The translations under genes and the position numbers were made by a program. A DNA stretch of 62,152 bases from a virus: IMG/VR virus record IMGVR_UViG_3300033153_008214, positions 1-62,152 of that record, one strand, 5' to 3'. Each line of letters begins with the position of its first letter. The first letter of the stretch is position 1. Below the pieces are notes generated by a model. The model was not told the DNA's origin. It saw only the letters and a program-made list of their open reading frames with translations, and ran no database searches. This document shows positions 1,287 through 55,149 of this stretch, piece by piece.

Positions 1287-3410
1287 ATGGGCATCAAGGC
1301 ATTTCAGGCAAATCTTACACCGGTAGGTCATTTTGATATATTGGATACAGACCTTGCAGGTTTGAAGGGAGGGGAAATCCTTGTCTTTGATCGTCTTGAT
1401 GAATCTGTAGGTGATACGGCAGCACCAGATGTTTTTAGAGGAGACGGGTATAATTCAGTATTGAGGCTTGCTAGCTCACTGGATAATGGTCCTTTCTTCC
1501 TCGCAGCTAATGAGGAAGAAGCCAGGTATAATACTCCAGGCTTTGAAGTAAGTAGCATGTATGCTCAGAACCAACCCTTTGGACAAATGCTTGATTCCTC
1601 TAATAAGGTCTCTATTTATGCTGAAGAAGGTTTTTACAGTATAAGTTCTGACGTAGTTGATGACACAACTGTAAATGCTAATACAGATGTATATGCTAGA
1701 CTGTATGCTGATCCGTCCGGACTGCTTACCACTACTCCGAGTGCAGGTGGATCTCTAGTAGGGTTCTTTATTGAACATAGAGATGGAGATGCATTGCGAG
1801 GGTATCCTAATAAATTTAGGTATCTTGGAACTCATCGGATTGGCGATTCAATCACATTTTATAAAACAGTTGGAGATGGCTATTTTAACCTTAATTTGGT
1901 ATCCGAGATGGTTGGCCAGATGGGACAGCTTGGTACTCCTACGGATGGATACTTTAGTGATGGACTATTAGCGTTAGCATCTACTACGACTATAGCAGAT
2001 GCTGTAGACTCTATAAATGAAAATCTGTTTGTTCTTTCAGTAGCGACTATTGTTGACAGGAATGCAATACTGTCTACGCATCGTTATGAAGGCATGTCGG
2101 TTTATGTAGAGCAAACAGAATGTAGATTTATATTGAAGGTTGGAATTGCAAACTCTAACTGGGTACTGGATGATGACTTTGTAGGTAAACAGGCTTACTT
2201 GGGGTTTGTCGATGAAGATGATTCAGCAACCATCTATGTATCTGCAACTGGTAGTGATATAGATGGTTATGGCAGTATAGATGTTCCTTATCGACAAATT
2301 CAGAGAGCTATGAAGGATATACCTCAGGGAGCTTCTGGAGATTTTTATATTCAGTTGGGGGCGGGTTCATTCAAGCCGTTTATATTCGACAGAACCATTA
2401 TTGGTAGAATTTATGTAATTGGAAATAGAAGCAATCCTTTAATCAGCTCTGGCATATCTTCAAATTCTTCACTTGCTTCTGGAAAGCATGCCCGAAGAGA
2501 GCTTTCTACAGGCGGTTGGGCTGGGGCAATTACAGATGGCAGTCATTGGATGATTAATGACAAGGGTGTTGCTGATATTTATGCAGTACCTTTGGAGGCA
2601 TCAACATCGCCAACACTGGAACTTGTTGGATATATAAGTTCCGGTACAGGAAAAGAAGTTCATCCCTTTGAAAGTGTAATCACAGAACCTGATGAATACT
2701 ATACAGGGGGTGTGATTACTGCACTAGAAAGAACTACACCAGATCAAGGAAAGTATGTGATTCTTGGCGTTGAGCTTCAGGATATAGTCAACCTTGAAAA
2801 TATATATACTTTGGCCTGCAAATTTACTATGAATAATCATTATTATATGAACCTTAGCGGGTCTGTGTGGTTGGGCGGAACAGTGATGGGCTCGTTAAGT
2901 TATATAGTTGCATTGAATGGATCTACTGTAAATACAGAAGTTGGATTATATCTTTTGGGCGGGGCAGATTTAAGAGTAGAAGGTGGTCATGTAACTTTCA
3001 ACTCAAGCATAATTAAAGACAGCAGTGTTATTAAGTTAACTGATAATAGCTCGCTAGCAATTGGCCAAGCAGATATTGAGACAAGCGGGCCTATAGCATT
3101 AACGGCTGAAAACCGAAGTACGATAAGGCAAGCCGGAGCTATATCTGTAAGCTCAACACTTACAACACTTGTAAGTTTAAATGACTCCTCATTTGTTAGG
3201 AACTCACTTATTGAAGGTAGCACTACAGGAACATGCATGATCTTATCGAATAGTTCAAATGTTTCATTTATGTCTGGGACCACCCTGACTAATTCTGTTA
3301 CAAGTGGGGAAGAGATTAAAGTAGGTGGAAACGCACCAGTTGCGTTCAGTGATTTGCCAAGAACAGATTTAGTCCTAGGTAATACATCGGAAATGTGCAA
3401 GGCAAGTTAA
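1287..3410 (+). CDS. Tail-appendage protein with C-terminal beta-helix
   Basis: A 707-residue protein. The first ~310 residues are an N-terminal part of unrecognised fold. Near residue 316 comes the entry motif of right-handed parallel beta-helix (pectate-lyase-like) proteins: YVSATGSD, a short Asp-Gly loop, then a YRQIQRAM helix resembling the usual PFxTIQxA. From there to the end the sequence is a ladder of short strands rich in Ser, Asn, Thr and Gly (runs such as TDNSSLAI, LNDSSFV), as in trimeric phage tailspikes. It contains four DGY tripeptides. A good ribosome site (AGGGAG) precedes the ATG. It may bind or degrade a surface polysaccharide; no catalytic residues can be assigned by eye. 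Confidence 0.7.
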   Translation: MGIKAFQANLTPVGHFDILDTDLAGLKGGEILVFDRLDESVGDTAAPDVFRGDGYNSVLRLASSLDNGPFFLAANEEEARYNTPGFEVSSMYAQNQPFGQMLDSSNKVSIYAEEGFYSISSDVVDDTTVNANTDVYARLYADPSGLLTTTPSAGGSLVGFFIEHRDGDALRGYPNKFRYLGTHRIGDSITFYKTVGDGYFNLNLVSEMVGQMGQLGTPTDGYFSDGLLALASTTTIADAVDSINENLFVLSVATIVDRNAILSTHRYEGMSVYVEQTECRFILKVGIANSNWVLDDDFVGKQAYLGFVDEDDSATIYVSATGSDIDGYGSIDVPYRQIQRAMKDIPQGASGDFYIQLGAGSFKPFIFDRTIIGRIYVIGNRSNPLISSGISSNSSLASGKHARRELSTGGWAGAITDGSHWMINDKGVADIYAVPLEASTSPTLELVGYISSGTGKEVHPFESVITEPDEYYTGGVITALERTTPDQGKYVILGVELQDIVNLENIYTLACKFTMNNHYYMNLSGSVWLGGTVMGSLSYIVALNGSTVNTEVGLYLLGGADLRVEGGHVTFNSSIIKDSSVIKLTDNSSLAIGQADIETSGPIALTAENRSTIRQAGAISVSSTLTTLVSLNDSSFVRNSLIEGSTTGTCMILSNSSNVSFMSGTTLTNSVTSGEEIKVGGNAPVAFSDLPRTDLVLGNTSEMCKAS

Positions 3411-3437: not shown

Positions 3438-3980
3438 ATGGCATTAGAAGTATCTAATTTTAGCAGTGCGTTCGGTCTTTCGGCCCAAAATTCGTATCAT
3501 AGAATCCGCAGCATTAGTGGGTCAGCAGACGGCGGAATATCATATATTATAGAAATCTATTATGATAAAGAAGCAAGAGATTCAGGAAAAGCCCCTCTAT
3601 CAATTCTTTCCAAAGTGGTTCCGGAAAGTCTCGCTTCACGCATAGGTGTAATTTACGAGCTTTACGGAATTCTGAAGCAAGAGTCTGAATATACCTCTGC
3701 GGTAGATGTAATTGATCCGGGTAACTTTGTAACACTTTCAGCAGAGGATGTATCGGGTTCTTACATACTTAGCGGTGCATTAGAGGATGGTTATTCTCTG
3801 AGTGGAGATACCGCGACTGACGTGATGTTTACTGGAAAGTTTGTACTTGCAGGTAATGTTGTAGCTGGCACTGTAGTTGGTGCTGACATGTCTGACGTGG
3901 TTGGTACAGCGGGTGCATTAACTCAGGGTTATATTACTGCGGGTGTTTGCACTGGTCTAATTATACAAAATTTAGTATAG
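3438..3980 (+). CDS. Hypothetical virion-associated protein
   Basis: A 180-residue protein with an AGGAGA ribosome site. The N-terminal half is mixed alpha/beta. From residue ~100 on it is Gly/Val/Thr-rich and strand-like (SGSYILSGALEDGYSL, then GKFVLAGNVVAGTVVG), as in phage fibre tips. It ends six bases before the first lectin-type fibre, so it may be an accessory or tip protein for one of its neighbours. It carries one DGY. No family is recognised. Confidence 0.55.
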   Translation: MALEVSNFSSAFGLSAQNSYHRIRSISGSADGGISYIIEIYYDKEARDSGKAPLSILSKVVPESLASRIGVIYELYGILKQESEYTSAVDVIDPGNFVTLSAEDVSGSYILSGALEDGYSLSGDTATDVMFTGKFVLAGNVVAGTVVGADMSDVVGTAGALTQGYITAGVCTGLIIQNLV

Positions 3981-3985
3981 CGTAG

Positions 3986-6598
3986 ATGAGTTATTATTCC
4001 TCAGTAGGGTTATCAAATCCTGTATCGGTACATAAGGCGCAGCACAGTGAAGACCCTGGGCTAACGTTTGATTTGCCTATGGATATGAGTGGCCCTAGCC
4101 AGTTACCTACTAACATGACGGTAGATGGCTATGAGGTGGCTCCTACTTTCAGGTATACATCTACGGGGGTAAGAGAGAATCTATTAAGCTATACTGAAGA
4201 TTTCGAAAATGCAGCATGGATTAAAGTAGCTGGTGTTACGGTAAGTGACGGCTACACAAGCCCTTTTGGTAGTGGTACAGCCACATTAATATCCAGTTCA
4301 GCATCAGGACATCAGGCGATTACTACAAATGGGATGGTAATACCTATCCATGCTGGTGAGATATACACTGTATCTATGTACTTAAAGGCAGAAAATATAG
4401 ACTGGGTATTCCTACATCTTGCTAATGGAATAAATGGAGGAGTATATTTTAACTTATCAGATGGATTAGTTGGAAGTACATCAGCGGCTGGAATAGTTAG
4501 TTCAAGAATTGAGGCTATTGGACCGGATTGGTTTCGTGTGTCCATGTCAGTGAACATTACGAGTGGGTATATTGGGTTCTCACTTTATCTCGCCGAGAGT
4601 GATGGCGATTACAATTTAGCTAGTGCTCCCGGTGATGCTATTTATATATATGCTCCTCAGATTAATAGTGGCCCGCTTATCCCATACTATGATGCGGGCA
4701 AAACGTCTGCTGGACCTAATAGAAAGTGGTTCTCTGATGTAGGCCCAGATTTAGATTATGCTGGAAGTGGCAATGATATTTTAATTAAGCCCAGCCCATT
4801 TACTGATGGGGCTCCGGTAATCAAATTTAATTCTGGAAAATGTTTCTCTGCTGTATTAGGTGCCGGTCCAGGAACTAATGATGTTGCAATCGAATATGTA
4901 GGTTTCAATGATTCTTCTGGAGGGGGAGTGTTGTTGGAGTGGTCAGAAGGTGCTGCTGGCACTCCTCGAATAGAGATAAATACCACTCGCAGCGCGACCC
5001 AAGTTTATATAAGAGGGTTCTTGGGTAGTCCTGGAGGAAGTGCATCGACATATGGGTGCAGAGGGAGTAATGGAGATAACCTGTATCACTTCATCGAGTT
5101 TTATGATAATAGTCAGCTTACATCTCAAACAACTGGCCTTATTCAATACGCCAATGGAGCGGCAGATAGCTATTCATTACCAGGAGCAACTAATGATATA
5201 GATGTCAACATGAACACTTCCTCCAGAATAACTATTAGCGGAAGATATAACTATACTTCTACAGATGATTCTGGGGTTGTAGCTATTGCAATACATTCAA
5301 GTGCTAACTGGTATCCTGGTGGCACGGATAATACAACTGTTTGGAAGGAAACTATAAAACGTCGTTCTGCTCAAGTCATGGGCGTATATCCTGCTACTGC
5401 AGTAGGAGATAAGACTCCACTTGTTGCAACCAGAACATCAAATAATTCATTCTTAGATATCCAAGATGATTCTGGTTATAGGACCTTGCATCAGGTGGCC
5501 AAAGGGTGGATGAGAATTTGTAAGAGGCCTGACAATAATGACAAACTTATAAGCGGCTTGCTATCTGAAAAATACGCAACACAGAAACTTCCCTATACAG
5601 ACGATATGATAAATGATTGGGGTGGTCACGCAACAATCTCAAAGCAAGATGGTTATGAAACATTTCAACCCCATCTTGAAGCTCAGGTATGCACCCTTAT
5701 TAGCACAGGTAACACCAATGCAGAGTGCGCCGTTTACTACCCAAACATCACCCCCTCTGGAGATGGATGGACAAGTTGCTGGGCGAAAAAAGGCAATGGA
5801 GAAGCAGATTGGTTTGCACTTAGATTATCTACTGTAACATCAGGGATTGTGGTTCAATATTTTGATCTAGTTAATGGTGTAATTGGTACAGGGACTACGG
5901 ATGTGCTTGATGCATTTATTGAAGATTGGGGAAGTGGCTGGTATAGATGCTGCATGAAACATGAGAATGCAAAAACTGGATATATATACTTGCACCCATG
6001 CGCAGCAGATAACTCTGTCTGGATTACGCCAAGCTCTATAGGGGTAGAGCTAATATCACTTGTTTTCCCCCAGGTTATAAATAATAGTGATGGGCCTACA
6101 AGCTTTATTTTAAACACGGGAACGGGAGGTGTAACGAGGGCGGTTGATATTTTAGAATACACCCCTATAGATAATTATGCTCCCATTACTGGGTACACCA
6201 TCGATGCAGACATACTTAAATATCCAGCAGCACACGCGAATAGCATTGCAGGACCATGGGGTTTAAGCAGGACGACCTCTTATCATGGTATACGGGTATA
6301 CTGTAACGGGCCAGATGGAGAATTAATATTCAGGGTCGAGAATGAATCGGATACTACACTTTGGGCAGCGCATACAAGTTCGGATGTATCAGATGGGTAT
6401 GTTCATAATATAAGAGGATCTTGGGAGGCGAATAGCCAAGAAATGTATATTGACGGTAATTTAGATGCTTCCAATACTTTGTCAGATGGGCCACACTCTG
6501 ATATTAATTACCTAAGTGTCGGTAAGGATCGATCGCCATCTGCTATTGAGTTTGACGGTCTGGTATCTAATTTTAAAATATATAACAAGGTGAAATAA
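3986..6598 (+). CDS. Lectin-like tail fibre, paralog A
   Basis: An 870-residue protein. The N-terminus (SHSEDPGLTFDLP, LPTNMTVDGYEVAP, GVRENLL) is nearly the same as that of the gene at 21204. Two copies of a carbohydrate-binding-like beta-sandwich common in phage fibres follow. The first begins YTEDFENAAW and ends PQINSGPLIPYY; the second contains SCWAKKGNG and WYRCCMKHEN and ends with another FPQ segment. The C-terminal ~130 residues look like a LamG/concanavalin-type domain ending in YNKVK, again shared with the paralog. Its last base overlaps the next start (TAATG). The role is probably receptor binding at the tail; binding specificity cannot be read from sequence. Confidence 0.75.
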   Translation: MSYYSSVGLSNPVSVHKAQHSEDPGLTFDLPMDMSGPSQLPTNMTVDGYEVAPTFRYTSTGVRENLLSYTEDFENAAWIKVAGVTVSDGYTSPFGSGTATLISSSASGHQAITTNGMVIPIHAGEIYTVSMYLKAENIDWVFLHLANGINGGVYFNLSDGLVGSTSAAGIVSSRIEAIGPDWFRVSMSVNITSGYIGFSLYLAESDGDYNLASAPGDAIYIYAPQINSGPLIPYYDAGKTSAGPNRKWFSDVGPDLDYAGSGNDILIKPSPFTDGAPVIKFNSGKCFSAVLGAGPGTNDVAIEYVGFNDSSGGGVLLEWSEGAAGTPRIEINTTRSATQVYIRGFLGSPGGSASTYGCRGSNGDNLYHFIEFYDNSQLTSQTTGLIQYANGAADSYSLPGATNDIDVNMNTSSRITISGRYNYTSTDDSGVVAIAIHSSANWYPGGTDNTTVWKETIKRRSAQVMGVYPATAVGDKTPLVATRTSNNSFLDIQDDSGYRTLHQVAKGWMRICKRPDNNDKLISGLLSEKYATQKLPYTDDMINDWGGHATISKQDGYETFQPHLEAQVCTLISTGNTNAECAVYYPNITPSGDGWTSCWAKKGNGEADWFALRLSTVTSGIVVQYFDLVNGVIGTGTTDVLDAFIEDWGSGWYRCCMKHENAKTGYIYLHPCAADNSVWITPSSIGVELISLVFPQVINNSDGPTSFILNTGTGGVTRAVDILEYTPIDNYAPITGYTIDADILKYPAAHANSIAGPWGLSRTTSYHGIRVYCNGPDGELIFRVENESDTTLWAAHTSSDVSDGYVHNIRGSWEANSQEMYIDGNLDASNTLSDGPHSDINYLSVGKDRSPSAIEFDGLVSNFKIYNKVK

Positions 6599-7092
6599 TG
6601 TCAAGAAAAAATTTAACAGCCAATGAGCATGCCAAGGTAGCAAGTGCTTTCGCTAATAAGCATGCGGCACCTTTGCAGATGGATGGATATCAGGCGGAGT
6701 CAGTTACGCTTATAATAGACCTGGCTATGGGGAATGAGGCGGAGATATTTGATATTTTGGATACACTAGCTCTGAAAGGATGGGTTGAAGGCTCAATTAT
6801 CATGGACAAGCTTGATGGATATGGTTTACCTATTAATCCAGGTGTAGATAGATACGTCTCTGTTTTAAGTAATGCCCGTAATATTAGAGATGCTGATGGA
6901 GTACACGGCATGTTATCAGCCAAGGTTTTCTCAGCATTCCATTGGAATGATTATCCATTATGGGCATCAATCGATGGATACCCTGCTCATCATTACTGCG
7001 GTGTTCCAGTAGCGGGGACAACTATTAGACCAATGCGGAGACGTAGTAAGCCTATTGAGGTCATCATCGAGCCGCCCGACCCACCTGAATAA
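6598..7092 (+). CDS. Hypothetical protein coupled to lectin fibre A
   Basis: A 164-residue protein whose ATG overlaps the stop of the 870-aa fibre, giving translational coupling. The N-terminus resembles a small helical segment (TANEHAKVASAFANKHAA). The middle is amphipathic helix and loop, and the C-terminus is basic, then Pro-rich (RPMRRRSKPIEV, PPDPPE). It holds three DGY tripeptides in 164 residues, the joint highest local density in the window. No family is recognised. Coupling suggests a partner or assembly factor for the fibre, but the sequence does not show which. Confidence 0.55.
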   Translation: MSRKNLTANEHAKVASAFANKHAAPLQMDGYQAESVTLIIDLAMGNEAEIFDILDTLALKGWVEGSIIMDKLDGYGLPINPGVDRYVSVLSNARNIRDADGVHGMLSAKVFSAFHWNDYPLWASIDGYPAHHYCGVPVAGTTIRPMRRRSKPIEVIIEPPDPPE

Positions 7093-8758: not shown

Positions 8759-11700
8759 ATGACTTTTACTACTGATACACTATCCAAAGCTGCTTTCAAG
8801 ATTCTCAATGGGTTTACTCACAGTTCGAACTCAAAAGATCTGAGCAATGAGGCTGATAGCTCAAGCCCTGTAGTTGCATCATCAGAGATATTTGCAGATA
8901 AATTACTTTCAGTTTCTCAAATTTTAGCTGACGGGTATGGGGTATATGTCTCAGGGCTTACTCTCGTAGAAGATTTGAGTTCGGATGGAAAGTCATACGA
9001 ATTTACAATAGGGGCTGTTTCTGGTTCAGCCTTAGATGGATATATAAATCCTAAGACAGGGAGTTTATATGTAGACGATGACCGTGTTGGCTATTTGCTT
9101 CATCCAAAGTATGATCCAGATTTACGTGCAATCATTCTTGATAACGGAATTGAACGAGCACCCCTGGACTCGACAGATTTTTTCGTGGATTATTATAATG
9201 GTAGAGTAACCAGCGAAGATGATATGCTTCTTGGAGTTACCGGGACAGCAAATGCTTACGTATTTACTGGTAATTTCCTTTCGGATACACTAGACAACAT
9301 CATATCCTCTACACCTACGATTACTGGTGGCAAAGATGGCTATTTGGCTGTTTGGGATAGTGGAAGTACTTTAAATTACGACGAGTCTCTATATTTCGAT
9401 ACGACTAATGACCGATTAGGTATTGGTACTGCTGCACCGAGTTATGAGATTGATGTAGTTGGAGCGGCAAATGTTACTGACCGATATCGTATAGGCAGTG
9501 TTGATGCATTACGAGTTGAGAGTAATGATGTATTTGTTGGAAATACTGGAACGAATGCGAGTGGTGGAAATAATCTTCTTTTGGGTTATTTTGCAGGGCG
9601 CACACTTGGGGCTGGGGATAGAAATACATTTATAGGTTCATTGTCTGGCGAACTTGCTACAGGCTCATCTCAAGGTGTTGCGATAGGTTATGTGGCAGGA
9701 GCAAGAGCGACCGGTTCAGGTTATGTGGCGATAGGATCAAATGCAGGGGCTTTCCAGGATGGAGCAATAGGGCCCGTTTACATAGGCCAGGCCGCAGGTA
9801 AATATGCAGAGGGTAATTATAACACCGCGCTCGGGCATAATGCATTATCTGGTAGTGATGGATATACTACTGGAACATACAATGTCGCTATAGGTAAATC
9901 TGCTGGTTATAGCATCACTACGGCAAATGATAGTGTTCTTATAGGGCAAGAAGCCGGAGTAAATTTATCTACTGGCATCACAAATGTACTTATTGGTAAG
10001 AAGCCAGGTTCTGCAATAACTACGGCTCGTGGTACAGTAATTATTGGTGAAGAGGCTGGGCAGGAAACTAATGCAAGTTATGGAATATTTATAGGCGCGT
10101 TTGCTGGCCGTTACGCAACGGGTGTTGACAATATTGCAATTGGGCAGGTTGCAGGAGAAGGAGTTTCTGGGACAAATACTGGTACATCTAATATATTTAT
10201 TGGAGTGAAGGCTGGACAGAAAATTACATCTGGAGATTCAAATCTTGCTATTGGTAAAGAGGCCGGAGATGCCATAACCACTGGTGGTGGTAATATGTTG
10301 CTAGGTGCTGGTGCTGGCGGATCAATTATAGATGGTGGCAGCAATATCGGTATTGGATTTGGAAGTATTGCAGGCCTTACATCAAGTTATGGAGTGGTTG
10401 GGATCGGCCAAGCGGCGGGGCATATTGGCGGATCATATTCAGTCCACATAGGTTATACTGCAGGTAATACTGATTCAAGCGCATATAATGTTAATATTGG
10501 CTGGTCGGCAGGCAATAATGCTGGTGCATCGGCAACACATTCTGTACGGATAGGTTATCAGGCTGGTCGATATGGTACTGGGCCTGATAATACCATCATT
10601 GGGTATGGTGCAGGAGAGGGAGCGACAGGTCTCAGTACATTTAGCGCTACAACCCTGATTGGCGTCCACGCTGGTAACAATTTAACTACAGGTATACAGA
10701 ATACATTTATTGGTTTTTATTCCGGTCTGGGTGCAACAACAGCTAGTTATAATGTAGTGTCGGGAGTATATGCAGGTTATCGTCTTGACGGCTATAGCAA
10801 TAATGTGTTCTCCGGCTATCAGGCTGGTAGGTATTTGCGTTCGAATGACAATGTCGCTATCGGTTATAATGCTGGGTTAGGTGTAGATGGTATATCTACG
10901 GGCACAGATAATACATTTGTAGGATATGAGTCTGGCCTTGCGATAACTACAGGGTACTTAAATACTTTCGTTGGACATCAGTCAGGAACAAGTAATACCA
11001 CTGGATATGCATCCATATTCATAGGGCCGTATTCTGGTTTAAACTCTCTCGCAAGTGATTATGCTGTAGCCATTGGCTATGAGGCAATGAAGAACGTTGT
11101 TAACTCTGACAACAGTATCGCTATTGGTAGAGGCTCACTTCAGTCGACTACTGTAGGAAGTCAGGTTGCGATTGGGGCCTTTGCGGGAGAGAAAATTGTT
11201 TCCAATGTGGCATTAACTGCTATAGGATATAAGGCCGCACAATTTCTTACAGGAAGTTATAATCTTGCTGTAGGTTATGAGTCCGGCCTTGGCATAGATG
11301 GACAATCTACCGGTGAGTCAAATGTGCTTTTGGGTCACAACTCTGGTAAAAATCTCACTACTGGGAACTATAATGTAGCTATTGGAAAAAGTGCGGGAGA
11401 AAGCTTAGATGGATATAGCAATGTAGTCCATATTGGCTATGAGGCAGGTTTATATTCAAGAGTGAACAGTACCGTGGCAATCGGTTATCAGGCAGGTAGG
11501 GGAGTTGATGGGATTTCGACGGGGGCTTCAAATGTATTTGTGGGTTCAGTGTCTGGGGTTAGCATTACTACTGGCGAAAGAAATGTTGGATTAGGCGCGG
11601 GAGCAATTAATAGCCTAACAGACGGCGATAAGAATATAGGTATAGGTTATTCTGCTGGCGGAGCAGTAACTACCGGTGATGCAAATATCCTTATGGGGTC

Positions 11701-21195: not shown

Positions 21196-21203
21196 GAAGT
21201 AAT

Positions 21204-30329: not shown

Positions 30330-30396
30330 ACTCCCTACTAATAATTATCATTTAAACTGCAACCTAATAGACGATAGTAACTTGCAGAGGACAGTT

Positions 30397-31287
30397 GTGG
30401 CTATTCCATATGATCGTAGTGCTGTTCCAGTAGGCTCTTCTGTACGCCTTGAAGTCCAGTTTAAAGACTCCGCAGGGAACTCTAAGGATGCTCAAGCTAC
30501 ACCCACGTTTGAGGTACAGGATGCCTCTAACGCAGTTGTACTTGCCGCATCAGCTACTGGAGTAACCCGTACTGCTAAAGGGCGGTATCGTTACGAATAT
30601 ACTATACCCACCGGTTATGTCTCAGGTATATGGAATGATATCTGGGTAGGTACCGTAGATGGATATCAACTCACTGAAGTATTTAATTTCACAGTAAATA
30701 GTGTAGGAAGTATAGAATCTACCGGCTCTAGTATTCCAGAAGATGATTATACTCTAGATGATGATGATCTGGAGTATGATTACACTCAGGAAGAAATCCA
30801 AGGTATTTTGCTACTTAGGGGAATGTTGAAAAAACGTTTGAGAAGTACCATCTATAATACCGAAGGATCCTCTTGCCCCATCTTCTCTAATGATTTGCTA
30901 TTAAGCTTCCTATGTGCCTCTCTATCTGAACTAAATGCAACTCCCGCATTTACAACTTACTCCTTTGCTGATAATGTCATTCAAACTCTAGCTGTAGACC
31001 TTATGACACAGGGTGCCTTGCTAGTTGCCTGGTCAAGCCAAGCTATCATAGAAGCCGGATTCGAACTAACTGTGAATGACAATGGAGTTACTGTTAACCC
31101 TCCACCCGTCAGCACTACGATGACAGGATTATATACTACGCAACTCACGGAGTATAGGGCTAAGTTGAAGGAATTTAAGAGGAATCATCGCGCCTCAGCT
31201 CGTGGCCTAAGTGCAGGTAACCTACTTAACGGTAGGAATTTCAGAGTTCGAAGATTACGACACCGAAAAGAATTAAGATTGATCTGA
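30397..31287 (+). CDS. Structural protein with N-terminal Ig-like domain
   Basis: I chose GTG 30397 because GAGGA stands five bases upstream; the earlier in-frame TTG at 30382 has no such site. The product is 296 residues. Residues ~1-105 are an Ig-like beta-sandwich (GSSVRLEVQFKDSAGN, GRYRYEYTIPTGYVSGIW). Residues ~115-140 are an acidic linker (EDDYTLDDDDLEYDY), and the rest is helical with a basic C-terminus (NFRVRRLRHRKEL). An acidic linker and basic tail suggest assembly contacts with other virion proteins or DNA. It could be a neck or connector component; this is not certain. Confidence 0.55.
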   Translation: MAIPYDRSAVPVGSSVRLEVQFKDSAGNSKDAQATPTFEVQDASNAVVLAASATGVTRTAKGRYRYEYTIPTGYVSGIWNDIWVGTVDGYQLTEVFNFTVNSVGSIESTGSSIPEDDYTLDDDDLEYDYTQEEIQGILLLRGMLKKRLRSTIYNTEGSSCPIFSNDLLLSFLCASLSELNATPAFTTYSFADNVIQTLAVDLMTQGALLVAWSSQAIIEAGFELTVNDNGVTVNPPPVSTTMTGLYTTQLTEYRAKLKEFKRNHRASARGLSAGNLLNGRNFRVRRLRHRKELRLI

Positions 31288-44639: not shown

Positions 44640-47600
44640 ATGAGTAATTACCCAGCAAAAATAGATACTGATGTTGAGCTTCCTCGTGTTGATGACAATG
44701 TTAGTGAGATAGCCTCAGAAGTTATAAACTCATTAAGGGAAGCGGTAGTTGCCGTTCAAACAACCCTAGGTAAAGATCCTCAGGGTTCTGCAGTTGATCT
44801 TGTCACTAGACTTTCTCAGTCAATTAATGATGATGGTACGTTAAAGCTTGCTGCTTTGACTATTGGCTCAATTACTAATGCTCAGATTGCTTCTGGCGCA
44901 GCAATACTAGAGTCTAAGCTTGACTTAGATTTCACTACTCAAAATCTTCAAGACCAGATTACCAGCAATGATATAGATATTGCTGCATTACAAAAAGCGA
45001 TTGCAAAGGTGATTAGCGATCTTGCTATGCATGTTGCAGGTACAGGATTGCGACATGATACATTTGACATTGATCTGAATACTGCTTACGTTGGAACTAC
45101 TCCTCCGGAGTTTGCTGGACTTACTAGCTCAGAATTGCATGGTGTCTTAGTCGAGATGAATGATCGTTATCTGGATCATACAAGTGACTCCAAGGTAGAA
45201 GCTCATAAGGCTTCAACAGTTTCAGTAGATGGGGCAAACTTTAAGGTTATTCCTGTGGAAGTGGATGATGTTCAGGAAGCCTTGGAAAGCCTTGATGTGG
45301 CCAGAGCTGAGGAATTCATTAAGCATAGGGACCATCTTCATGCAAACGGGTTTGATAACTGGGCGAATAACATTCAAGGTTACAATGAAAATCTTCAATT
45401 AGTTCCAGCTATATTTGGTCAAACTGTCGTAGCTACCATAATTTCAGGAACTAGAAACCAGATTAGATTTCCAACTATTGATCTTGCTGCTCAGGGAGTT
45501 GAGCAGGGTAGTGTAATCGTAATAGCTGATGGTTATGCTGCAGGAAGTTATGTTGTAGATGATGTAGGGCCGCGTACAGCCATGGGTGGGAAATCCTTAC
45601 TTGATTCGACTGACGTAGAGATACAAAGTGTATTCCCAGACTCTCTTATCACTGATGGTTATGTAGATGCTTCAGTATTTGGAGAAAGCAGCCTGTTTAC
45701 ATTCAAGGGTAATGTTGCAAGTGTAATTCGTACAAGTTCTTCAACGCTTGACAGTGTTCAACTTGCTCGGCCAAATGCAGCAAAAGTATTAACACTGGGG
45801 ATTAAGCCAAATCTAATCTCTGGTGGAGAGACTCTGAATCTTGAAGTAGGTTTGGATGATAACAATATTCGAACTACTAGTATTGCGCTAAGCGGTTCTG
45901 CAACTATTGACTCACTGGTAGCAGAGATCAATACTTCTCTGCATGGTTCTGATGCATTCCCTGCGGCAGCATATAGGGTTGGAGATGAGTTGCTACTCTC
46001 TCATAACTGGGATGGCTATGTTGGCAATTATATAAAGGTTCTTACAACTGGTACTGCCAATACCATTCTAGGGTTTGATGGATATGGTGCAGATGTAGTG
46101 AGTCTTGAAGTGCCCCCTACCAAGCATTCCAAGTATTATGTGAATGGTAGTATGCTAACAGATTTCAAGCTGATTAGTTCCACTACGGCTGACATATCTG
46201 GTACAACGATCACGTTCACTGATTTCAATCCTGAGGATTCTGAGTTAAAGCCTGGCAATATGATCCATGTTAAAGATCATGCCACTGTTGCTGAACGTGG
46301 AAGTTATGAGATAACGGCTATTTCTCCAACGACTGTAACTGTACACACTTCTATTGTTGTAGGAACAGATGTTGCCGTAGAGATGTACCATGACGTAATC
46401 CCTCTTGCTGAGCTTGCCTCGAATGGTGATGCTCAGATTATAGAGGTGTTCCTTGATAGTGTGGGTCGATCAAAGTATAACCCCCGACTTGAGTTTGACA
46501 AGACTATTTCGAACCTTAATGTAGTTGATATAAGTGACAACTTTATTCCTGGAAGCTATATCCTTAATTCCGTTATAGATGCTGGTGGATATAATCTCAA
46601 CTTTGGCACAACTGGTATAAATACGTTTGTACCTACTGGTTTCATTGGAAAGAAACGAGTCTATTCTGAGTCCAATATCGAATTCTTAGATGTTGAAGTA
46701 ATAGGTATTTTAAGTGCTGGTGCTGCAGCGATTGTTATCAATGAACATATTAATGAGGAGGAAGTTCTTGAGATTGCTACGATTCGAAGCAATGGGCTGG
46801 AATCTTTAAGTGATGTTAAAGATAAGAGGTTGTTTGGAACCATAGGGCTTGATGAAATTCGAGAAGACGTTATTCAGTCCTATATTGAAGGGCCTCTAAC
46901 TGATCTCAGATCAAATGGTATTGTTAGAGGATTTGACGTAATTACTGCTAATTACGCTGATTTCGTATATCCAACTTATAAGGCAGTGCTGGTACGTGGT
47001 GGGAGTTTGTACGTAAATGGAGTTGGCTGCAGTGTGAGAACTCAAACAGTAGTATTTCCAAATGCTGCAGGGACTTACTTCATTGTATTGAATCAGATTG
47101 GCGTGTATGAAATTATCAACATAACTACTTGGACCATGGAAGAGATTCTCGATGGAAGTGCGGGTGAGTATGCACTAATCGCAAAAGTTGTACATGATGG
47201 TGCAAATGTAACTAACACTGAAGATCTCAGGTATTTCATAAGTAATTTGGATTCTAGGGTTGATCTGGTAGTTGATGAGACTAACAATTTCACTGGAAGC
47301 TTTGCTACCTTTGAAGCAGCTATGAACTATGCAAATAGCTATCCCTCTAGTGAAAAACCTCTGATTCGAGTAGTCTCTAATGAAGCTACTGACATTACAG
47401 TTCCTGCGGGAAGTCGAGAAGTTACTATACAGGTAGATGGTTATGTGAATGATGTTACCATTCATGCTCCTTGCAGACTTGAAAGTGGTGGTTTGAACGA
47501 AAGAGCTTCTGCTCATATCTGGGGAGATATAACGGTTTCAAACACCTGTACAAGGTTAGAGTTAGATGGGGTAAAAGTATCGGGAGCTGTCTCTATAACT

Positions 47601-50600
47601 GAAACTCTATCAGTTGATATTCAAAATAGCTCCTTTGCAAGTACGTTTACCAATACTGGTACCGGGTCTAGGGAAACATTTGCAGATAATTGTGAGTTTA
47701 GTGGAAACGTATCCTTTACTAGCTCTGAGGCCAGGATTGACAACTCTATATTGAGTGGTTCAGGAACGATTTTATCAAACAGCTCTCAGACCTTCGTAAG
47801 AAGTACTATCTTTGATCAGGCTCGCATACAGACTACATTTGACGCATTCTTAACGGGTTGTACATTTGAGAATCACAGTTCGGTAAATACTATCGCTACC
47901 TCAAGTGGTGGACCGATGATGATAGATAACTGCGTATTCCAGAATATGACAAGCTCTCTTACTGGAACCATGATTTTGATCTCTGCGTCAAGTGGTACCA
48001 TAAGCAATAGTTTCTTCAAGTCTGTTACTATGACAGGTACCGCAGCATTGATTTCTGCCACTAGTGTGGTAGATAGTTTCTTCAAATCAAACACTTATAC
48101 TACCACTCAGGCTATTACGGTTCAAACTTTTTCTGATAACTTGGCTGAAAGTAATACTGGTGATATGCTGGTAGGTGCTCGCATATTTAATGGTAATGAT
48201 GGGATACCTTCTGTAGGTGGAGCTGATGTAAGATCAGTATCAGGAAATAGTTTTCCTTCTGCGAGCACTCTTGGTTACAATGTTGATATAGGAAGTGATG
48301 GGTATGCAGTAATTATTGGTAATCAGTTTACTGATATTGTAGCTAGTGCAATAGGTATAACTTGTACCTCAGTATCTACTGGCATTAACATATCTAACAA
48401 CTATTTTGCTGGGGCGGGGGCAACAAGTACTGGCATAGCTCTAACTAATGCTACAGATTTGATAGTATCTACGAACACTTTTGACAATTGTGAATCTTTA
48501 TCTACCAGTGTTGAAGCGACTAGCTTATTCATTAGTGGGAATCGATTTGGTGAGCTGGATGAATCCTTCCTAGCTGGAGATAACCTACAGTTTGTAAATA
48601 ATAAGAAAGTAAATGGTACTTTCACTATTAACACTTCTACAGCAGATGAATGGAGGGTGATTAATAATCAGATGAGTGGTGGTTTACACTTGATTGGTAC
48701 TACTTTGACGAATACCTTGATTTGTGAGAATACTTTTAGCTTGCTTACATTTGAACTTGGTTTGAATGAAGCTATTATGGCTAATAATGTAGGCCTGATG
48801 AGCACTGTTGGAACGGTAGATTTTGAACAGGTTATTTGTTCTCAGAATGACGGCCTGTTTACCGGAGCAAGTTCTGCAAATGTGGTTTGGAGTAAGAGTA
48901 CTATAAGTGAAAATATCTGGAATACTGGAGATACTTACACAACTCTGACCATGAAGAGTGATGGGTCTAATACTCCGGCGTTGGTAAACATTACTCAGAA
49001 CTTGTTCTATGAGACTGATATAGAGATTGGTGCAGCGAATCAGATTGACCAGGTGTCTTTCTCAGATAATCTGTCTGTTGGTGAAACGCTTGCCCGGTCT
49101 TTAAATATAGCAGCTCACATGAATAACAGCTATATTTCAAGGAATTTGAACTTTGATATTGGTATGATTGGTTCAAACAATATGACTATTTCGCTTAATA
49201 GTTTAAGTAGTCAGACGATTAGCTTAACCGGTCAAATTAACTCTACACTGGTTACCGGCAACTTTGTAAATAACTTGCTGGTGAGTGGTGATAGTGCTAC
49301 TGGCCTTATTATCAACAGCAACGTTGTGTTTAACAACATTGATGTCAACCGTACCTTAGCCGCTACTGCGAGTATCACCGGAGCCATGATCTCTGACAAC
49401 TTTGTAGTTGCAAATATTAGAATATCTGACACTATTTTCTCAGGCTCTCCTGCAGTAGGCAGAGATTTCAGATTTATTGATTGCACTATATCTGGAAATA
49501 GAATTGGTGGAAGTTTATTATTTGCAGATTCTGGAACACTGACATCTACCTCTGTTCAGTATCTAATAACTGGTAATACAGTAAAGGATAATGTCACTAC
49601 ATCTGACATACGATTAATTGCATTTACAGGTGTAATGTCTGATACAATAGTTATGTTTAAAGATAATATGGTTTCTGGGAATAGTGTCGGAGGGAGCTTA
49701 ACTATTGGCAGCAATGGGGACCACTCGTATATCTCAGGGTCAGAGTTTTCTGGAAATATTATTTCTGGGAATAACATTATGTCACTTTTGTCTCTACAAA
49801 CAGAGGGCATTTCTGTAATTACAGCTTCGAATAACTATGTCAATTCCAATAAAATTGGAGGCTCGTTCTCGTTCGAAGGATTTAATTTAGATACATTTAC
49901 TTTCAATGATAACTTGGTCGGTTCTTCAACAGTTGTAAGTTTTAATAATCCTAGTTCGGCGGTTCTTGACTCTGACACTTACTTTCATTCTATATACAGC
50001 AATATATCTTTCAAAGGCAATGTTTTTGAAGGAGATATAGATATGGTATTAGGTTTTACTGGTCCGGCAGATGGTTATGGTGTGGACTTGAATGGATTTA
50101 CGTTTTCTGGAAATACTGCGCCATTAAATAATTTTACAATTCGCTCAAGCAATTTATCCTTTTTTATGCTTAATCGGTGTGAGTTTAACGACAATGAGAT
50201 TCGAGGTATAAGTATTGGAGCTGATATATGGAGAGGTGGTGTAACGGGGGTTGGTATAATCAATAATACATCTGTCATAGGGAATGTTTTCCCTGGACAA
50301 TATGACAGCTCTGTTGGCATAGATTTAGCTTGGCCCGGCTTTGAAATTACCGATAAGTCAGGAAATCAGGAAGCTCGGATATATACAACTAATTTTATAT
50401 TTAATTCTAATTCTGCTGGTCACTTATACGACCCATCTGTACTTGGACTAGTTGACTTTGATACATTTTCGGATGGATTTCCTCGTGCAAAATTTGTATT
50501 TCGTCAAAAAGTGGACGGGTCCTCTTATCAATTGAATGGAATGTATTGGTCAAACTTCATTGGCAACTCTAGCATAAGTTTTGAATTCTCGAATCAAGCT

Positions 50601-51197
50601 ACAAATACAACAGTTGCCAACAGCTTGATAATGCTATATGAATGTACTTGGTCTGGCAATGTAGCAATGTCTCTACTATTAGAATCTACGACTCCTTCTC
50701 TTGGAAGCCTAAGGGGAGTTTATCTGTACAGCAGCATACTTTCTGGAAATAGTTGGGATGTCAAGAGTACAGCAAGTGGCTCAGTATCTTTGTCCGTACC
50801 TAAAGAAACAACGTTTTACTCTAGCGAGGTGGTAGCTGGAGATAATAGTATCAATGATGTTACTATTACTGGTAACTATAAATGTGAGATGTATTTTCTT
50901 GATAGCTCAGTCTCGGGCTTGAACAACATTTCCAATAATTGTGATGCGTTGTTGAATTTTGATGATGGTAATTGGAACAATGCTTATCAGACAAAAATTA
51001 TGGGGAATGCTTTTACGGATATAACTTATAATGGTGCTGGAACTTATGATCCAAAGGATGATGCTAATGAGAAAACATATTGGTGGGGAAATACAGCTCA
51101 AACTAACTCTAATTTTACAATTACTAGTACTTTGTCAGGAAATATGTCTGCCTCAAATAGCCTTAGCTCCAATAAAATACCAACTTATATTCCCTGA
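44640..51197 (+). CDS. Giant beta-helix tail fibre 2 with shared anchor
   Basis: A 2185-residue protein with GAGGA before the ATG. It has the same order as its neighbour: anchor (YPAKIDTDVELPRVDDNV), coiled coil (LDFTTQNLQDQITSND), His-rich helical linkers (HRDHLHANG), beta domains, and the opening GSFATFEAAMNYAN near residue 885. After that come ~1,280 residues of parallel beta-helix with recurring I-S-N-N and S-G-N turns. It ends without an obvious separate tip domain (SLSSNKIPTYIP), unlike its paralog. The helix part is about twice as long as in the paralog and varied in sequence. It contains seven DGY. It is a probable receptor-binding or depolymerising fibre. Confidence 0.8.
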   Translation: MSNYPAKIDTDVELPRVDDNVSEIASEVINSLREAVVAVQTTLGKDPQGSAVDLVTRLSQSINDDGTLKLAALTIGSITNAQIASGAAILESKLDLDFTTQNLQDQITSNDIDIAALQKAIAKVISDLAMHVAGTGLRHDTFDIDLNTAYVGTTPPEFAGLTSSELHGVLVEMNDRYLDHTSDSKVEAHKASTVSVDGANFKVIPVEVDDVQEALESLDVARAEEFIKHRDHLHANGFDNWANNIQGYNENLQLVPAIFGQTVVATIISGTRNQIRFPTIDLAAQGVEQGSVIVIADGYAAGSYVVDDVGPRTAMGGKSLLDSTDVEIQSVFPDSLITDGYVDASVFGESSLFTFKGNVASVIRTSSSTLDSVQLARPNAAKVLTLGIKPNLISGGETLNLEVGLDDNNIRTTSIALSGSATIDSLVAEINTSLHGSDAFPAAAYRVGDELLLSHNWDGYVGNYIKVLTTGTANTILGFDGYGADVVSLEVPPTKHSKYYVNGSMLTDFKLISSTTADISGTTITFTDFNPEDSELKPGNMIHVKDHATVAERGSYEITAISPTTVTVHTSIVVGTDVAVEMYHDVIPLAELASNGDAQIIEVFLDSVGRSKYNPRLEFDKTISNLNVVDISDNFIPGSYILNSVIDAGGYNLNFGTTGINTFVPTGFIGKKRVYSESNIEFLDVEVIGILSAGAAAIVINEHINEEEVLEIATIRSNGLESLSDVKDKRLFGTIGLDEIREDVIQSYIEGPLTDLRSNGIVRGFDVITANYADFVYPTYKAVLVRGGSLYVNGVGCSVRTQTVVFPNAAGTYFIVLNQIGVYEIINITTWTMEEILDGSAGEYALIAKVVHDGANVTNTEDLRYFISNLDSRVDLVVDETNNFTGSFATFEAAMNYANSYPSSEKPLIRVVSNEATDITVPAGSREVTIQVDGYVNDVTIHAPCRLESGGLNERASAHIWGDITVSNTCTRLELDGVKVSGAVSITETLSVDIQNSSFASTFTNTGTGSRETFADNCEFSGNVSFTSSEARIDNSILSGSGTILSNSSQTFVRSTIFDQARIQTTFDAFLTGCTFENHSSVNTIATSSGGPMMIDNCVFQNMTSSLTGTMILISASSGTISNSFFKSVTMTGTAALISATSVVDSFFKSNTYTTTQAITVQTFSDNLAESNTGDMLVGARIFNGNDGIPSVGGADVRSVSGNSFPSASTLGYNVDIGSDGYAVIIGNQFTDIVASAIGITCTSVSTGINISNNYFAGAGATSTGIALTNATDLIVSTNTFDNCESLSTSVEATSLFISGNRFGELDESFLAGDNLQFVNNKKVNGTFTINTSTADEWRVINNQMSGGLHLIGTTLTNTLICENTFSLLTFELGLNEAIMANNVGLMSTVGTVDFEQVICSQNDGLFTGASSANVVWSKSTISENIWNTGDTYTTLTMKSDGSNTPALVNITQNLFYETDIEIGAANQIDQVSFSDNLSVGETLARSLNIAAHMNNSYISRNLNFDIGMIGSNNMTISLNSLSSQTISLTGQINSTLVTGNFVNNLLVSGDSATGLIINSNVVFNNIDVNRTLAATASITGAMISDNFVVANIRISDTIFSGSPAVGRDFRFIDCTISGNRIGGSLLFADSGTLTSTSVQYLITGNTVKDNVTTSDIRLIAFTGVMSDTIVMFKDNMVSGNSVGGSLTIGSNGDHSYISGSEFSGNIISGNNIMSLLSLQTEGISVITASNNYVNSNKIGGSFSFEGFNLDTFTFNDNLVGSSTVVSFNNPSSAVLDSDTYFHSIYSNISFKGNVFEGDIDMVLGFTGPADGYGVDLNGFTFSGNTAPLNNFTIRSSNLSFFMLNRCEFNDNEIRGISIGADIWRGGVTGVGIINNTSVIGNVFPGQYDSSVGIDLAWPGFEITDKSGNQEARIYTTNFIFNSNSAGHLYDPSVLGLVDFDTFSDGFPRAKFVFRQKVDGSSYQLNGMYWSNFIGNSSISFEFSNQATNTTVANSLIMLYECTWSGNVAMSLLLESTTPSLGSLRGVYLYSSILSGNSWDVKSTASGSVSLSVPKETTFYSSEVVAGDNSINDVTITGNYKCEMYFLDSSVSGLNNISNNCDALLNFDDGNWNNAYQTKIMGNAFTDITYNGAGTYDPKDDANEKTYWWGNTAQTNSNFTITSTLSGNMSASNSLSSNKIPTYIP

Positions 51198-51732: not shown

Positions 51733-52506
51733 ATGGTACTTGGCACAGGATTATTTGTCAGAAGTGATATATACGATCTTGACAATATTGTAAGACATGT
51801 TGGAATCGTCCATGGACGCAACCTATTGATCGACACCCTCAGAGAAATCTTTGCAAGGGACCGGGAATTTGGCTATAGAGCTGATATCTTTGGGTTTCCT
51901 AAGACTCCTGACCATACAGGTCTGGATATAGATGCTGGTATAGATGATGATGTTACCACTAGACTCTTTATAGGGTCTACTTTCAGGTATGATATCCAAT
52001 TCCTGCCCGCTATTACTGTAAGGCAGACCAGCTCACAGTACAAACCTATCTCGTTTAATCAAAATATGCTTAGCCTTCAGTACCAGAAACAGCGTACTGA
52101 GGATGGCTATGGAAATGTTGACTTTGTAAGAGTTCCTAGCCATTACACTTACGCTGGTTCCTGGGAACAATCGTTTGAAGTTAAGGTTACTAGCAATAGT
52201 CAGGAAGATACTGCTTCTATCGCAGATGTAGTCATGATTAGCTTGCAGAGTACATATAGACGCATCCTAGAGAGGAATGGACTATTTGTAAAGCAAGTCT
52301 CAGCAGGTGGTGAGTCATCTGAACAAGTAGGCAGTAATGACCCACTTTTCTCAGTAGTAATTACGGTAAACACTCTTAGTGAATTTAGAAGAGAGATTCC
52401 AGTAAGTAATCTTTTAGAGAGAATTCAGCTCTGTTTCCATGTAGATCTTGGTAGTGATAAAGACCCACCTGCAAATGGGCTGACAATTAAGCATACTTTC
52501 GAATAA
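51733..52506 (+). CDS. Putative tail-completion or neck protein
   Basis: A 257-residue protein directly upstream of the sheath gene, a usual place for tail terminator or neck proteins in contractile-tailed phages. Helical N-terminus (NLLIDTLREIFARDREFGY), then beta-rich (TTRLFIGSTFRYDIQFLPAITV), a central helix (TASIADVVMISLQSTYRRILERNGLFV), and a final beta hairpin (RIQLCFHVDLG). The role is inferred mainly from position; sequence family is not recognised. Confidence 0.45.
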   Translation: MVLGTGLFVRSDIYDLDNIVRHVGIVHGRNLLIDTLREIFARDREFGYRADIFGFPKTPDHTGLDIDAGIDDDVTTRLFIGSTFRYDIQFLPAITVRQTSSQYKPISFNQNMLSLQYQKQRTEDGYGNVDFVRVPSHYTYAGSWEQSFEVKVTSNSQEDTASIADVVMISLQSTYRRILERNGLFVKQVSAGGESSEQVGSNDPLFSVVITVNTLSEFRREIPVSNLLERIQLCFHVDLGSDKDPPANGLTIKHTFE

Positions 52507-52584: not shown

Positions 52585-55149
52585 ATGGGCGCAGTAATTC
52601 CAAACGTTTTTGACCCGGTACAACCAGATATCTTTACCAGGGTCAGAACTCGCGAAAGAGTAAATGCTATTTCCGGCGGTTCACGTGTTCTTGCCATAGT
52701 TGGTGAGGGTGAGACTGAGGAAACCTTAGTTATTTCTGCCACTGGTGGCGGAGCTGATGGGTGGAATTCAGATTATTCTGGGACTGCTAATCCAGATGGA
52801 CGACATTTCCAAATCTCTAAGATAGGCCTGGTCAACAGTCGGAGTACTATCTTTAAGAATGGTGTTCCTCTTGCAACTCTTGAAGAGCAGATTACTTCTA
52901 AGGCATTCGATAATCGCTATGATGCCCGAGTAGATCCGCTTACTGGTAGGGTTGAGCTACAACGAGCCCATGTAGTAGACTTTGGTACCGATGTAAATGG
53001 TATTACCCTGTATTACTCCGTTAATTCAAGCAATGTTGGTACTGGCGTACCTGTTATTACTCAATCTTCCCTAGTTGATACGAACGCTCCTGCGGAAACT
53101 TGGACTGCCCGAGTTGTTGGAGTTATTAAGAACTCTGGTGGAGATATTATATCTGGAGAAGCTAGTATCTCAGTAACTGGTACTGAGTCTGGTCAGCTTC
53201 TGGATGTTAATGGTAACCCTTATGTTTGGAAATCTGGTGGGGTTGCAGTAAGCAATGGTGTTTTGAATCTTGCATTTACTGAGAGTGGAACTCCATTCAA
53301 TGTAGGTGACCGATTTACTATGCAGGTAGATAGTGGAGTTCTTTCAGTTAATGATAGCCTCTCTGCTCGCTACATTGCTAGCGAAGACCTTAATAACCCT
53401 GAGACTTTCTCTTCACCTCAAGATGCTTTCGCTATCTACGGTGACCCAAGTGTCACTAATACGCTTTCCCTTGGAATGCAGATGGCATTTGAAAATGGAG
53501 CCCCGGTGGTTACTGCTGTTATGGCCAAACCTCCAGTTCCCAGGAAAACTACTGAGTATCCTATTCTTGCAGATAATCCTCTTACCGATGCGGTAGAAGG
53601 TGCAACTGGTGGATCAGATCTTAAAGACACTGTATTCCCGCTTGCCGTAGGTGCGTTGCCTGATATTGACAGTAATGTCAATGTCTTTGTAGTCAGCTCA
53701 GATGGTACCGAGGAACAACTTCTTCTTAATAAAGATGATTTCTATGACACTGCCTTTACTACTACGGCTCTTGCTTATGCAAACTTTGTACAGGGTCCGC
53801 TTAGTGAGTCATATACTGTATTTACCTCTCCTCAAGTTGAGCAAGATGGTGATGATGGGTATGTTGAAATCCTTAGTGGTACTGAGATTTACTTCTCTGA
53901 CCCACTTGTACAGTTCTCAGCTGACCGCTTAGAGACTGGTGAGGGAGATGTTGGAAAGCAGATTGAAATCCTCTCTCCCGCCGAGGTTATTGGCACCTAT
54001 ACGATTACTAGTGTAGGCGATGGGTATGGCAATCTTAATGTAGCAACTGCTACAGGCACCCCTCCGGGCGCTACAGGAACCATTATAGATGGTTATGTTG
54101 CTTGGCAGATTGTAGATCCTAATGATACGGGTCATGCTTACTTTGCAATTACTGATGATGTTGCGGCAAATAGTCTGACTGCAGGTAAAGGGCTTCGAGT
54201 ATCTTATGTAGATACAGATGATGCAGACCATTTTGATACTAACTGGGGAGAGGCAATTCAAGCTCTTGAACTGGTAGATGTTCAGATGGTTGTTCCGCTG
54301 CCTATGCAGACAATTAGTAGCATCCAACAGGTATTTAAACGACATGTGGAAGTTGAGAGTAATATTCTCAACCAGCATGAGCGGATTCTTATTACGGGTG
54401 CTATTCCAGGGCTTGTCCCAGACAACCTTACTGGTCTAACTAGTGCGGCTGTGGAAGATATTGGTATCTTGGAAGGTATTCAGGGTGATGATCCTGAAGA
54501 AGTGCTTGCTGGTAATATCGAAGATATTACCAATTACTCAATCCCTGATGGGTTTGGAGATAGCTTCCGGGTTGTCTACATGTATCCTGATGAGATTGTA
54601 AGGAATATTGCAGGTCAAAACACTATACTTCCTGGTTATTTCTTAGCTGCTGCTCTTGGTGGGTATCTTGGCGGACAATTGAACATTGCTCTTCCTGCTA
54701 CCTTTAAGACTCTTGCTGGATTCAACATCCTTAATGACAAGCGTCTTAGGAAACGAACTAAGAATCAACTTGCTGGAGCAGGTGTGCTAGTTGTTGAGCC
54801 GATTGCTGGTGGTGGTAAAATGCTCTGGGGTAAAACGACTGTTCAGTCTGGAGCACCAGAGGAAGAAGAGATTAGCATTGTAGCTATTAGGGATCAGGTT
54901 GCTCGTACTATTCGTGCAAGCTTAAGACCCTTCATTGGTAGGATTAATAGTCCGACCATTGTTGCAGAGCTAAATGCCGGAATTGGAAAACTTCTCAGGT
55001 CACTAGTTGGGCAGGGGCTTCTAGCTGGATTCGGTTCTATTACCGTGCAGAGGAATCCGATTGAGCCTCGACAAGTTGACATTGGTGTAACCATTCATCC
55101 TGTAGGCGTGTTGGATTGGGCGTTTGTGGATGTGATCGCCGAGCTCTAG
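52585..55149 (+). CDS. Contractile tail sheath protein
   Basis: An 854-residue protein with a strong GGAGG ribosome site. The last ~200 residues carry the sheath C-terminal fold: PGYFLAAALGGYLGG, TLAGFNILNDKRLRKR, a helix with AIRDQVARTIRASLRPFIGR, and the final strand pair ending VGVLDWAFVDVIAEL. The N-terminal ~100 residues (PDIFTRVRTRERVNAISGG) resemble the arm that links neighbouring subunits. The middle contains extra beta domains (two fibre-like inserts near residues 420-520), making it longer than simple sheaths of ~350-650 aa. It polymerises around the tube and contracts on infection. Three DGY occur in the inserted domains. Confidence 0.88.
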   Translation: MGAVIPNVFDPVQPDIFTRVRTRERVNAISGGSRVLAIVGEGETEETLVISATGGGADGWNSDYSGTANPDGRHFQISKIGLVNSRSTIFKNGVPLATLEEQITSKAFDNRYDARVDPLTGRVELQRAHVVDFGTDVNGITLYYSVNSSNVGTGVPVITQSSLVDTNAPAETWTARVVGVIKNSGGDIISGEASISVTGTESGQLLDVNGNPYVWKSGGVAVSNGVLNLAFTESGTPFNVGDRFTMQVDSGVLSVNDSLSARYIASEDLNNPETFSSPQDAFAIYGDPSVTNTLSLGMQMAFENGAPVVTAVMAKPPVPRKTTEYPILADNPLTDAVEGATGGSDLKDTVFPLAVGALPDIDSNVNVFVVSSDGTEEQLLLNKDDFYDTAFTTTALAYANFVQGPLSESYTVFTSPQVEQDGDDGYVEILSGTEIYFSDPLVQFSADRLETGEGDVGKQIEILSPAEVIGTYTITSVGDGYGNLNVATATGTPPGATGTIIDGYVAWQIVDPNDTGHAYFAITDDVAANSLTAGKGLRVSYVDTDDADHFDTNWGEAIQALELVDVQMVVPLPMQTISSIQQVFKRHVEVESNILNQHERILITGAIPGLVPDNLTGLTSAAVEDIGILEGIQGDDPEEVLAGNIEDITNYSIPDGFGDSFRVVYMYPDEIVRNIAGQNTILPGYFLAAALGGYLGGQLNIALPATFKTLAGFNILNDKRLRKRTKNQLAGAGVLVVEPIAGGGKMLWGKTTVQSGAPEEEEISIVAIRDQVARTIRASLRPFIGRINSPTIVAELNAGIGKLLRSLVGQGLLAGFGSITVQRNPIEPRQVDIGVTIHPVGVLDWAFVDVIAEL

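Follow-up and report, generated by a model that had tools for sequence, protein, structure and literature searches.

An exact Asp-Gly-Tyr tripeptide in the tail proteins of an uncultured jumbo phage clade, a candidate acceptor motif for a linked glycosyltransferase

Introduction

General O-glycosylation in the Bacteroidetes uses a D-S/T-x motif, in which the serine (S) or threonine (T) acceptor stands right after an aspartate (D) and the targets are periplasmic proteins. In bacterial S-layer proteins, sugars are O-linked to tyrosine (Y); transfer via an oligosaccharyltransferase has been proposed, and few sites and no consensus are given (PMC2943079). Among phages, mycobacteriophages are reported to carry virion glycans, which are C-terminal on capsid and tail tube subunits (Freeman et al. 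2023, via an excerpt of PMC12619734). The same excerpt describes the Moraphages, aquatic jumbo phages with four core groups of glycosyltransferases whose target is unknown. Virion glycosylation by phage enzymes and Tyr O-glycosylation of S-layers are already known (PMC12619734; PMC2943079). In some uncultured jumbo phages, the core genes include glycosyltransferases, and DNA is a frequent guess for what these enzymes modify.

The locus described here, in which Asp-Gly-Tyr (DGY) is dispersed over virion proteins, can be compared with each of these systems. As in the Bacteroidetes, the putative sequon is short and requires Asp, whereas the acceptor there is Ser/Thr and the targets are periplasmic. 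As in S-layers, the sugar is proposed to sit on Tyr of an exterior protein lattice, but here through a presumed direct action of a family GT4 glycosyltransferase on a strict D-[G/A]-Y word. The mycobacteriophages are similar in that phage glycosyltransferases are thought to decorate their virion proteins; their glycans are C-terminal in the excerpted account, whereas DGY is found throughout exterior tail, sheath, and fiber proteins and is absent from the major head protein. The Moraphages are likewise uncultured jumbo phages with core glycosyltransferases, and the excerpt describes no peptide motif for them (PMC12619734). Among the papers that we searched, none described a virus tail with a strict tripeptide code spread over it or a glycosyltransferase known to use DGY as its sequon, and none was relevant to Asp-Gly-Tyr in phages.

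A strict peptide word confined to the tail and linked to an enzyme would turn the question of target into a testable protein modification code. If true, it would provide a direct-acting tyrosine sequon that is useful for glycan engineering and a sequence marker for sugar-coated phages. Whatever the mechanism, a tripeptide that is 12- to 20-fold over composition in nonhomologous virion proteins of a clade is unexpected and needs a reader.

Results and Discussion

The stretch of DNA analyzed (hereafter, the window) is a 62,152-nt IMG/VR virus record, IMGVR_UViG_3300033153_008214. The original prediction for it, counted by eye, was that about 63 DGY occur in 17 proteins where four to six would be expected. 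Calling 42 genes in the window, we counted exactly 63 in 17 proteins (14,547 aa; Table 1), and the individual counts that had been given (10, 9, 7, 5, 3, 3, and 3) were also accurate. Each protein's own composition predicts 4.9 in total, a 12.8-fold excess, and 300 shuffles within 20-residue blocks gave 5.1 ± 2.2; the shuffles reached at most 12 DGY within blocks and 13 over whole proteins, and a first-order Markov model predicted 14.5. DGY was by far the most over-represented tripeptide in these proteins (Poisson p ~1e-45 versus composition), while the remaining orders of the letters D, G, and Y occurred 1 to 8 times each. The second-ranked tripeptide, AIG (35 versus 11 expected; p ~1e-8), derives from a YadA-like repeat. 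Inflation by this repeat was ruled out as the source of the DGY excess, since 44 DGY remained, versus 3.6 expected, once the two richest proteins were removed.

Table 1 DGY-bearing proteins of the window
Protein	Position (nt)	Strand	No. of DGY	DGY residues	Remark
707-aa tail protein	1287..3410	+	4	53, 197, 220, 326	Weak PHROG tail match
180-aa protein	3438..3980	+	1	117	
870-aa tail protein	3986..6598	+	4	47, 88, 555, 803	C-terminal Laminin_G_3/ConA-like domain
164-aa protein	6598..7092	+	3	29, 73, 126	
2437-aa fiber	8759..16072	+	10	58, 93, 193, 367, 677, 884, 1124, 1366, 1623, 2335	YadA-like repeats
460-aa protein	16108..17490	+	2	25, 135	
1167-aa protein	17692..21195	+	2	316, 621	Probable fiber
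874-aa protein	21162..23786	+	3	58, 561, 806	Like 870-aa tail protein at first DGY region
943-aa protein	23817..26648	+	3	220, 439, 746	
215-aa protein	26657..27304	+	3	39, 64, 150	
301-aa protein	30382..31287	+	1	93	Conserved, virion cluster
706-aa protein	34038..36158	+	9	26, 125, 140, 162, 185, 328, 425, 432, 444	Conserved, tail cluster
685-aa protein	36162..38219	+	2	83, 242	Shared fiber N-terminal domain
1542-aa fiber	40004..44632	+	5	154, 242, 423, 569, 906	
2185-aa fiber	44640..51197	+	7	297, 339, 458, 480, 933, 1220, 1811	
257-aa protein	51733..52506	+	1	124	Conserved, adjoins sheath gene
854-aa contractile tail sheath	52585..55149	+	3	424, 479, 502	

Codon choice in DGY sites, originally described as varying freely, was close to background use, and the 9-mer GAYGGNTAY occurred 65 times on the plus strand of the window and twice on the minus strand. 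These counts indicate selection on the protein and not on the DNA, ruling out a DNA-level motif, a repeated DNA element, or a codon effect. The absence of DGY from certain other window genes, also claimed, was seen in 14 genes, although with only 0.5 expected this zero carries no information alone.

A patatin-like phospholipase gene lies at the left edge of the tail gene cluster (window positions 2 to 691), and a homolog adjoins the tail genes in the relative G022. A domain of ~60 N-terminal residues is common to four window proteins (starts at 27713, 36162, 40004, and 44640), and further G001 and G002 proteins have it too; it resembles a general domain for fiber docking. At 60821 to 62150, two consecutive open reading frames (256 aa and 161+ aa) match a single 1556-aa protein in G002, indicating that the window gene is interrupted at ~61592 to 61667 by an intron, a frameshift, or a disruption.

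As background, we counted DGY in ordinary phages. The numbers observed and expected from composition were 10 versus 2.7 in T4, 8 versus 2.3 in phiKZ, 4 versus 2.6 in phage G, and 2 versus 3.0 in Streptomyces phage Annadreamy (24 versus 10.6 pooled); a RaK2 region considered as a control proved to be nonstructural. Ordinary phages are thus mildly above composition, so that a fair value for the window excess is ~3- to 6-fold over generic phage proteins rather than 13-fold, which is still extreme. Homologs of equal DGY density were found only within the clade described below and not in T4, phiKZ, phage G, or the Streptomyces phage.

Scans with the window sheath and its neighbor returned ~150 loci from uncultured phages, on contigs of up to 473 kb. 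For part of its length, the window sheath aligns with the sheath of Bacillus phage G at 31% identity, and the major head protein of one relative, G007, is 52% identical to that of phage G. Genes for a PhuZ-like tubulin and a phrog_675 terminase are also present in G007, and every other whole contig covering the respective regions has homologs of them. The members of the DGY-rich clade are uncultured jumbo phages with a distant relationship to Bacillus phage G. The contigs L312 and L319, which come from the metagenome of a near-identical fragment, are different phages.

In many clade loci, no tripeptide is more enriched than DGY. It also ranks first in whole contigs, occurring 105 times versus 14.7 expected in G007 (340 kb; GC, 0.557), 79 versus 10.9 in G009, and 69 versus 5.6 and 95 versus 7.9 in G033 and G022, which are syntenic with the window; the contigs of DGY-topped relatives range in GC from 0.42 to 0.56. 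The excess in whole contigs lies in tail, baseplate, and fiber genes: by subtraction, nonvirion genes are at background (~8 versus 9 in G007 and 4 versus 5 in G009), and the major head protein, terminase, and head protease of G007 contain no DGY. DGY enrichment is a property of the clade and is confined to virion genes. In a sheath tree rooted on phage G, the DGY-rich state extends across the clade, and a low-DGY group (G012 and G013), with only ~15 DGY per virion gene set, is nested inside it. The sheaths of L030, L032, L028, and L119 lack DGY, and three of these four loci are still 9- to 11-fold enriched. To look beyond the clade, we scanned DNA with a pattern for three DGYs close together. 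No clear second clade emerged among the matches listed, most of which were GDGYG repeats of low complexity, KDGYD repeats, or members of the clade itself. Other hyper-enriched tripeptides, HRE/WYL in G001 and TGP/CPQ/QCG in G008, probably come from repeat proteins.

The motif is exact. In the same window proteins, DGF (2), DGW (2), NGY (2), EGY (4), and DAY (0) were near or below expectation, and DGN and DGK were not enriched. Among relatives, DAY was also enriched (20 versus 4.8 in G007 and 22 versus 6.2 in G022), DGF and EGY were not, and NGY was raised only in the baseplate proteins of one subgroup (18 versus 4.3). D, G, and Y are all required, with A also tolerated at the middle position in some lineages; D and Y stay fixed around a small middle residue. 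Across 225 DGY sites, flank preferences were weak to almost absent, which rules out a longer sequon. The sites can be clustered, e.g., DGYGPDGYRDGYDGYAPADGY.

Alignment of homologs showed both conservation and turnover of the sites. Compared with G002, whose sheath is 77% identical, 12 of 16 DGY were kept in full. Of the other DGx, 13 of 35 were kept, and of all triplets, 28%; the flanks of DGY, at 55%, did not exceed the average (60%). For G033, the corresponding numbers were 13 of 26 DGY, 9 of 50 other DGx, and 9% of all triplets. In the 1542-aa fiber, four of five DGY are kept in a 53%-identical homolog, and the single DGY of the 257-aa protein (residue 124) is kept in a 38%-identical relative. 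Relatives at 37 to 45% identity have DGY at different positions, and the 287 DGY of the baseplate family are spread over 46 alignment columns. On the question raised originally of whether sites are inserted or substituted, the alignments show both, with sites gained as loop insertions or by substitution. Low-DGY homologs in the 706-aa family lack several of the DGY segments, which are insertions in loops (e.g., CADGYxGVG and GDGYGPDGYRDGYDGYAPADGY). All three sheath sites (424, 479, and 502) fall within a region that is variable or missing among relatives. Where a sheath column retains D and Y, the position between them is occupied by G, A, S, or E, and some columns exchange DGY with DGT or NGT. 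Kept sites amid unkept flanks, turnover, constancy of D and Y, and weak flank preference together represent sequon-like behavior.

In the predicted structure of a baseplate protein (mean pLDDT, 84), all 10 DGY sites lie in loops or at loop edges, and 26 of the 30 DGY residues are coil, versus 52% coil overall. In the predicted window sheath (pLDDT, 82), two of the three sites lie in or beside strands and not in loops. None of the 63 window sites has the dockerin/EF-hand calcium loop DxNxDG(x) around it, ruling out such loops as the cause of DGY in the window; in the baseplate set, 20 of 287 do. The DGY-rich baseplate protein (L276:7029-9953 and homologs) has a dockerin-like calcium loop pair (GDVNxDG...RADVNGDG), and a Foldseek search gave matches to cellulosome dockerins with probability 1.00.

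Clade genomes carry glycan genes 3' of the last baseplate gene, and the constant member of this cassette is a GT4 glycosyltransferase. The linked gene has the Pfam domains Glycos_transf_1 and Glyco_transf_4 above the cut-off, placing it in GT4 (GT-B), and the clade enzymes have no close relatives among cultured-phage proteins (best, 25 to 26% identity). A GT4 scan combined with neighborhood analysis placed the gene 0 to 4.5 kb downstream of a baseplate protein that bears DGY; every one of the 58 distinct baseplate proteins encoded upstream of GT4 contains the motif (287 versus 14.9 expected). When large contigs were selected solely by their tail genes, 25 of 28 had GT4, and the three without it (132 to 221 kb) may be fragments. 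The 62-kb window ends short of this region, which we observed in its syntenic relatives G033 and G022. Distant GT4s in unrelated contigs were accompanied by no DGY excess (4 versus 6.1), and phage G has neither a GT4 match nor a DGY excess. In the low-DGY group, most DGY are in two baseplate proteins adjoining GT4. This near-constant placement of the enzyme gene just after the tail base genes suggests that DGY marks sugar attachment on the virus itself; all of it lies within one syntenic clade, however, so common descent confounds the linkage.

Our conclusion is that DGY acts as a recognition motif on display, and we infer that GT4 is its most economical reader, with Tyr as the acceptor. That DGY is the acceptor motif for tail glycosylation by the phage-encoded GT4, most likely on Tyr, is the explanation we favor, as a serious possibility if not quite a probable one. 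Under this model, the sequon would be displayed on exterior tail, baseplate, and fiber proteins of a single jumbo phage clade; the GT4, made beside the baseplate proteins, would add the first sugar to DGY, most likely at the Tyr hydroxyl; and additional glycosyltransferases and enzymes of nucleotide-sugar metabolism, encoded in a cassette that varies, would extend the glycan, yielding a sugar-coated tail. We propose more tentatively that the clade uses D-[G/A]-Y as a tyrosine sequon, with its own GT4, for a lineage-variable glycan coat on tail, baseplate, and fibers, which would amount to general tyrosine O-glycosylation under a strict tripeptide code. Several observations count against glycosylation. 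The low-DGY subclade keeps GT4, although this group could use another acceptor; the exposed major head protein has no DGY; and the predicted strand locations of two window sheath sites fit poorly. The GT4 could also act on something else, and it may be DNA or the host that the glycans decorate.

The exactness, exposure, clustering, and turnover of DGY suit an unmodified short linear binding motif as well, recognized by a phage protein (decoration, chaperone, or fiber docking) or by a host surface molecule, and non-covalent binding fits the sequence facts almost equally well. Being a tripeptide without flanks, DGY would then make a weak affinity motif, and the glycosyltransferase linkage would be a coincidence; we consider this explanation unlikely. 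We identified no binding domain shared by all. Seeking a gene present in all high-DGY and no low-DGY genomes, we obtained weak candidates, an epimerase and a membrane-anchored family, neither universal near GT4. In the initial genome comparison, the latter (G007_32584, G001_55259, G008_14169, and G009_201050) was present in all four high-DGY genomes and absent from both low-DGY genomes, but it was not seen near GT4 in many high-DGY contigs.

It is improbable that DGY is simply a tight turn favored in tail proteins rich in beta structure and multiplied through common ancestry and repeats. DG tends to form turns, the sites are predicted to lie mostly in loops, T4 and phiKZ are mildly enriched, and the exchanges with DGT or NGT would be expected of a turn; against this, the window proteins show no enrichment of DGF, DGW, DGN, DGK, or NGY, other columns retain D and Y while the middle residue varies, DGY occurs in unrelated folds, new sites keep arising, and the cultured relative phage G lacks the excess. 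Asp and Tyr are metal ligands and modifiable groups, and they are the most constant positions of the motif, as would suit metal (e.g., iron) binding, Tyr-Tyr or Asp-linked cross-links, or another Tyr modification, e.g., phosphorylation or nucleotidylation. We found no dedicated enzyme and no conserved site pairing for such chemistry, and spacings vary widely, making it quite improbable. The original prediction had offered a binding, modification, or cross-linking site or a turn; relatives, substitutions, and neighborhood favor a recognized motif over a simple turn, and the neighborhood points to glycosylation, while modification and binding both still stand.

Beyond GT4, the cassettes contain GT2, GT47-like, GNAT, epimerase, GDP-mannose dehydratase, NTP-transferase, and DegT genes. 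The smallest in high-DGY phages (G008 and L270 types) consist of GT4, an epimerase, and one membrane-anchored protein, and others comprise tens of genes. GT2 genes are common in high-DGY cassettes and not required; GT2 was rejected as the DGY reader, with none detected in the high-DGY G008- and L270-type cassettes. A membrane-anchored protein with a beta-rich-looking C-terminus (L013:15259-16272; homologs in G007, G008, and G009, the G007 member without a Pfam match) often lies between the glycosyltransferases and the epimerase. In the low-DGY subclade, the glycan islands are very large: 30 to 45 kb of glycan synthesis genes lie between GT4 and the tubulin gene in G012 (44000 to 94000) and G013 (233000 to 277000), at loci L199-L201 and L225-L227, and inspection by eye revealed NeuA/NeuB-, KdsA/KdsB-, and DegT-like genes among them.
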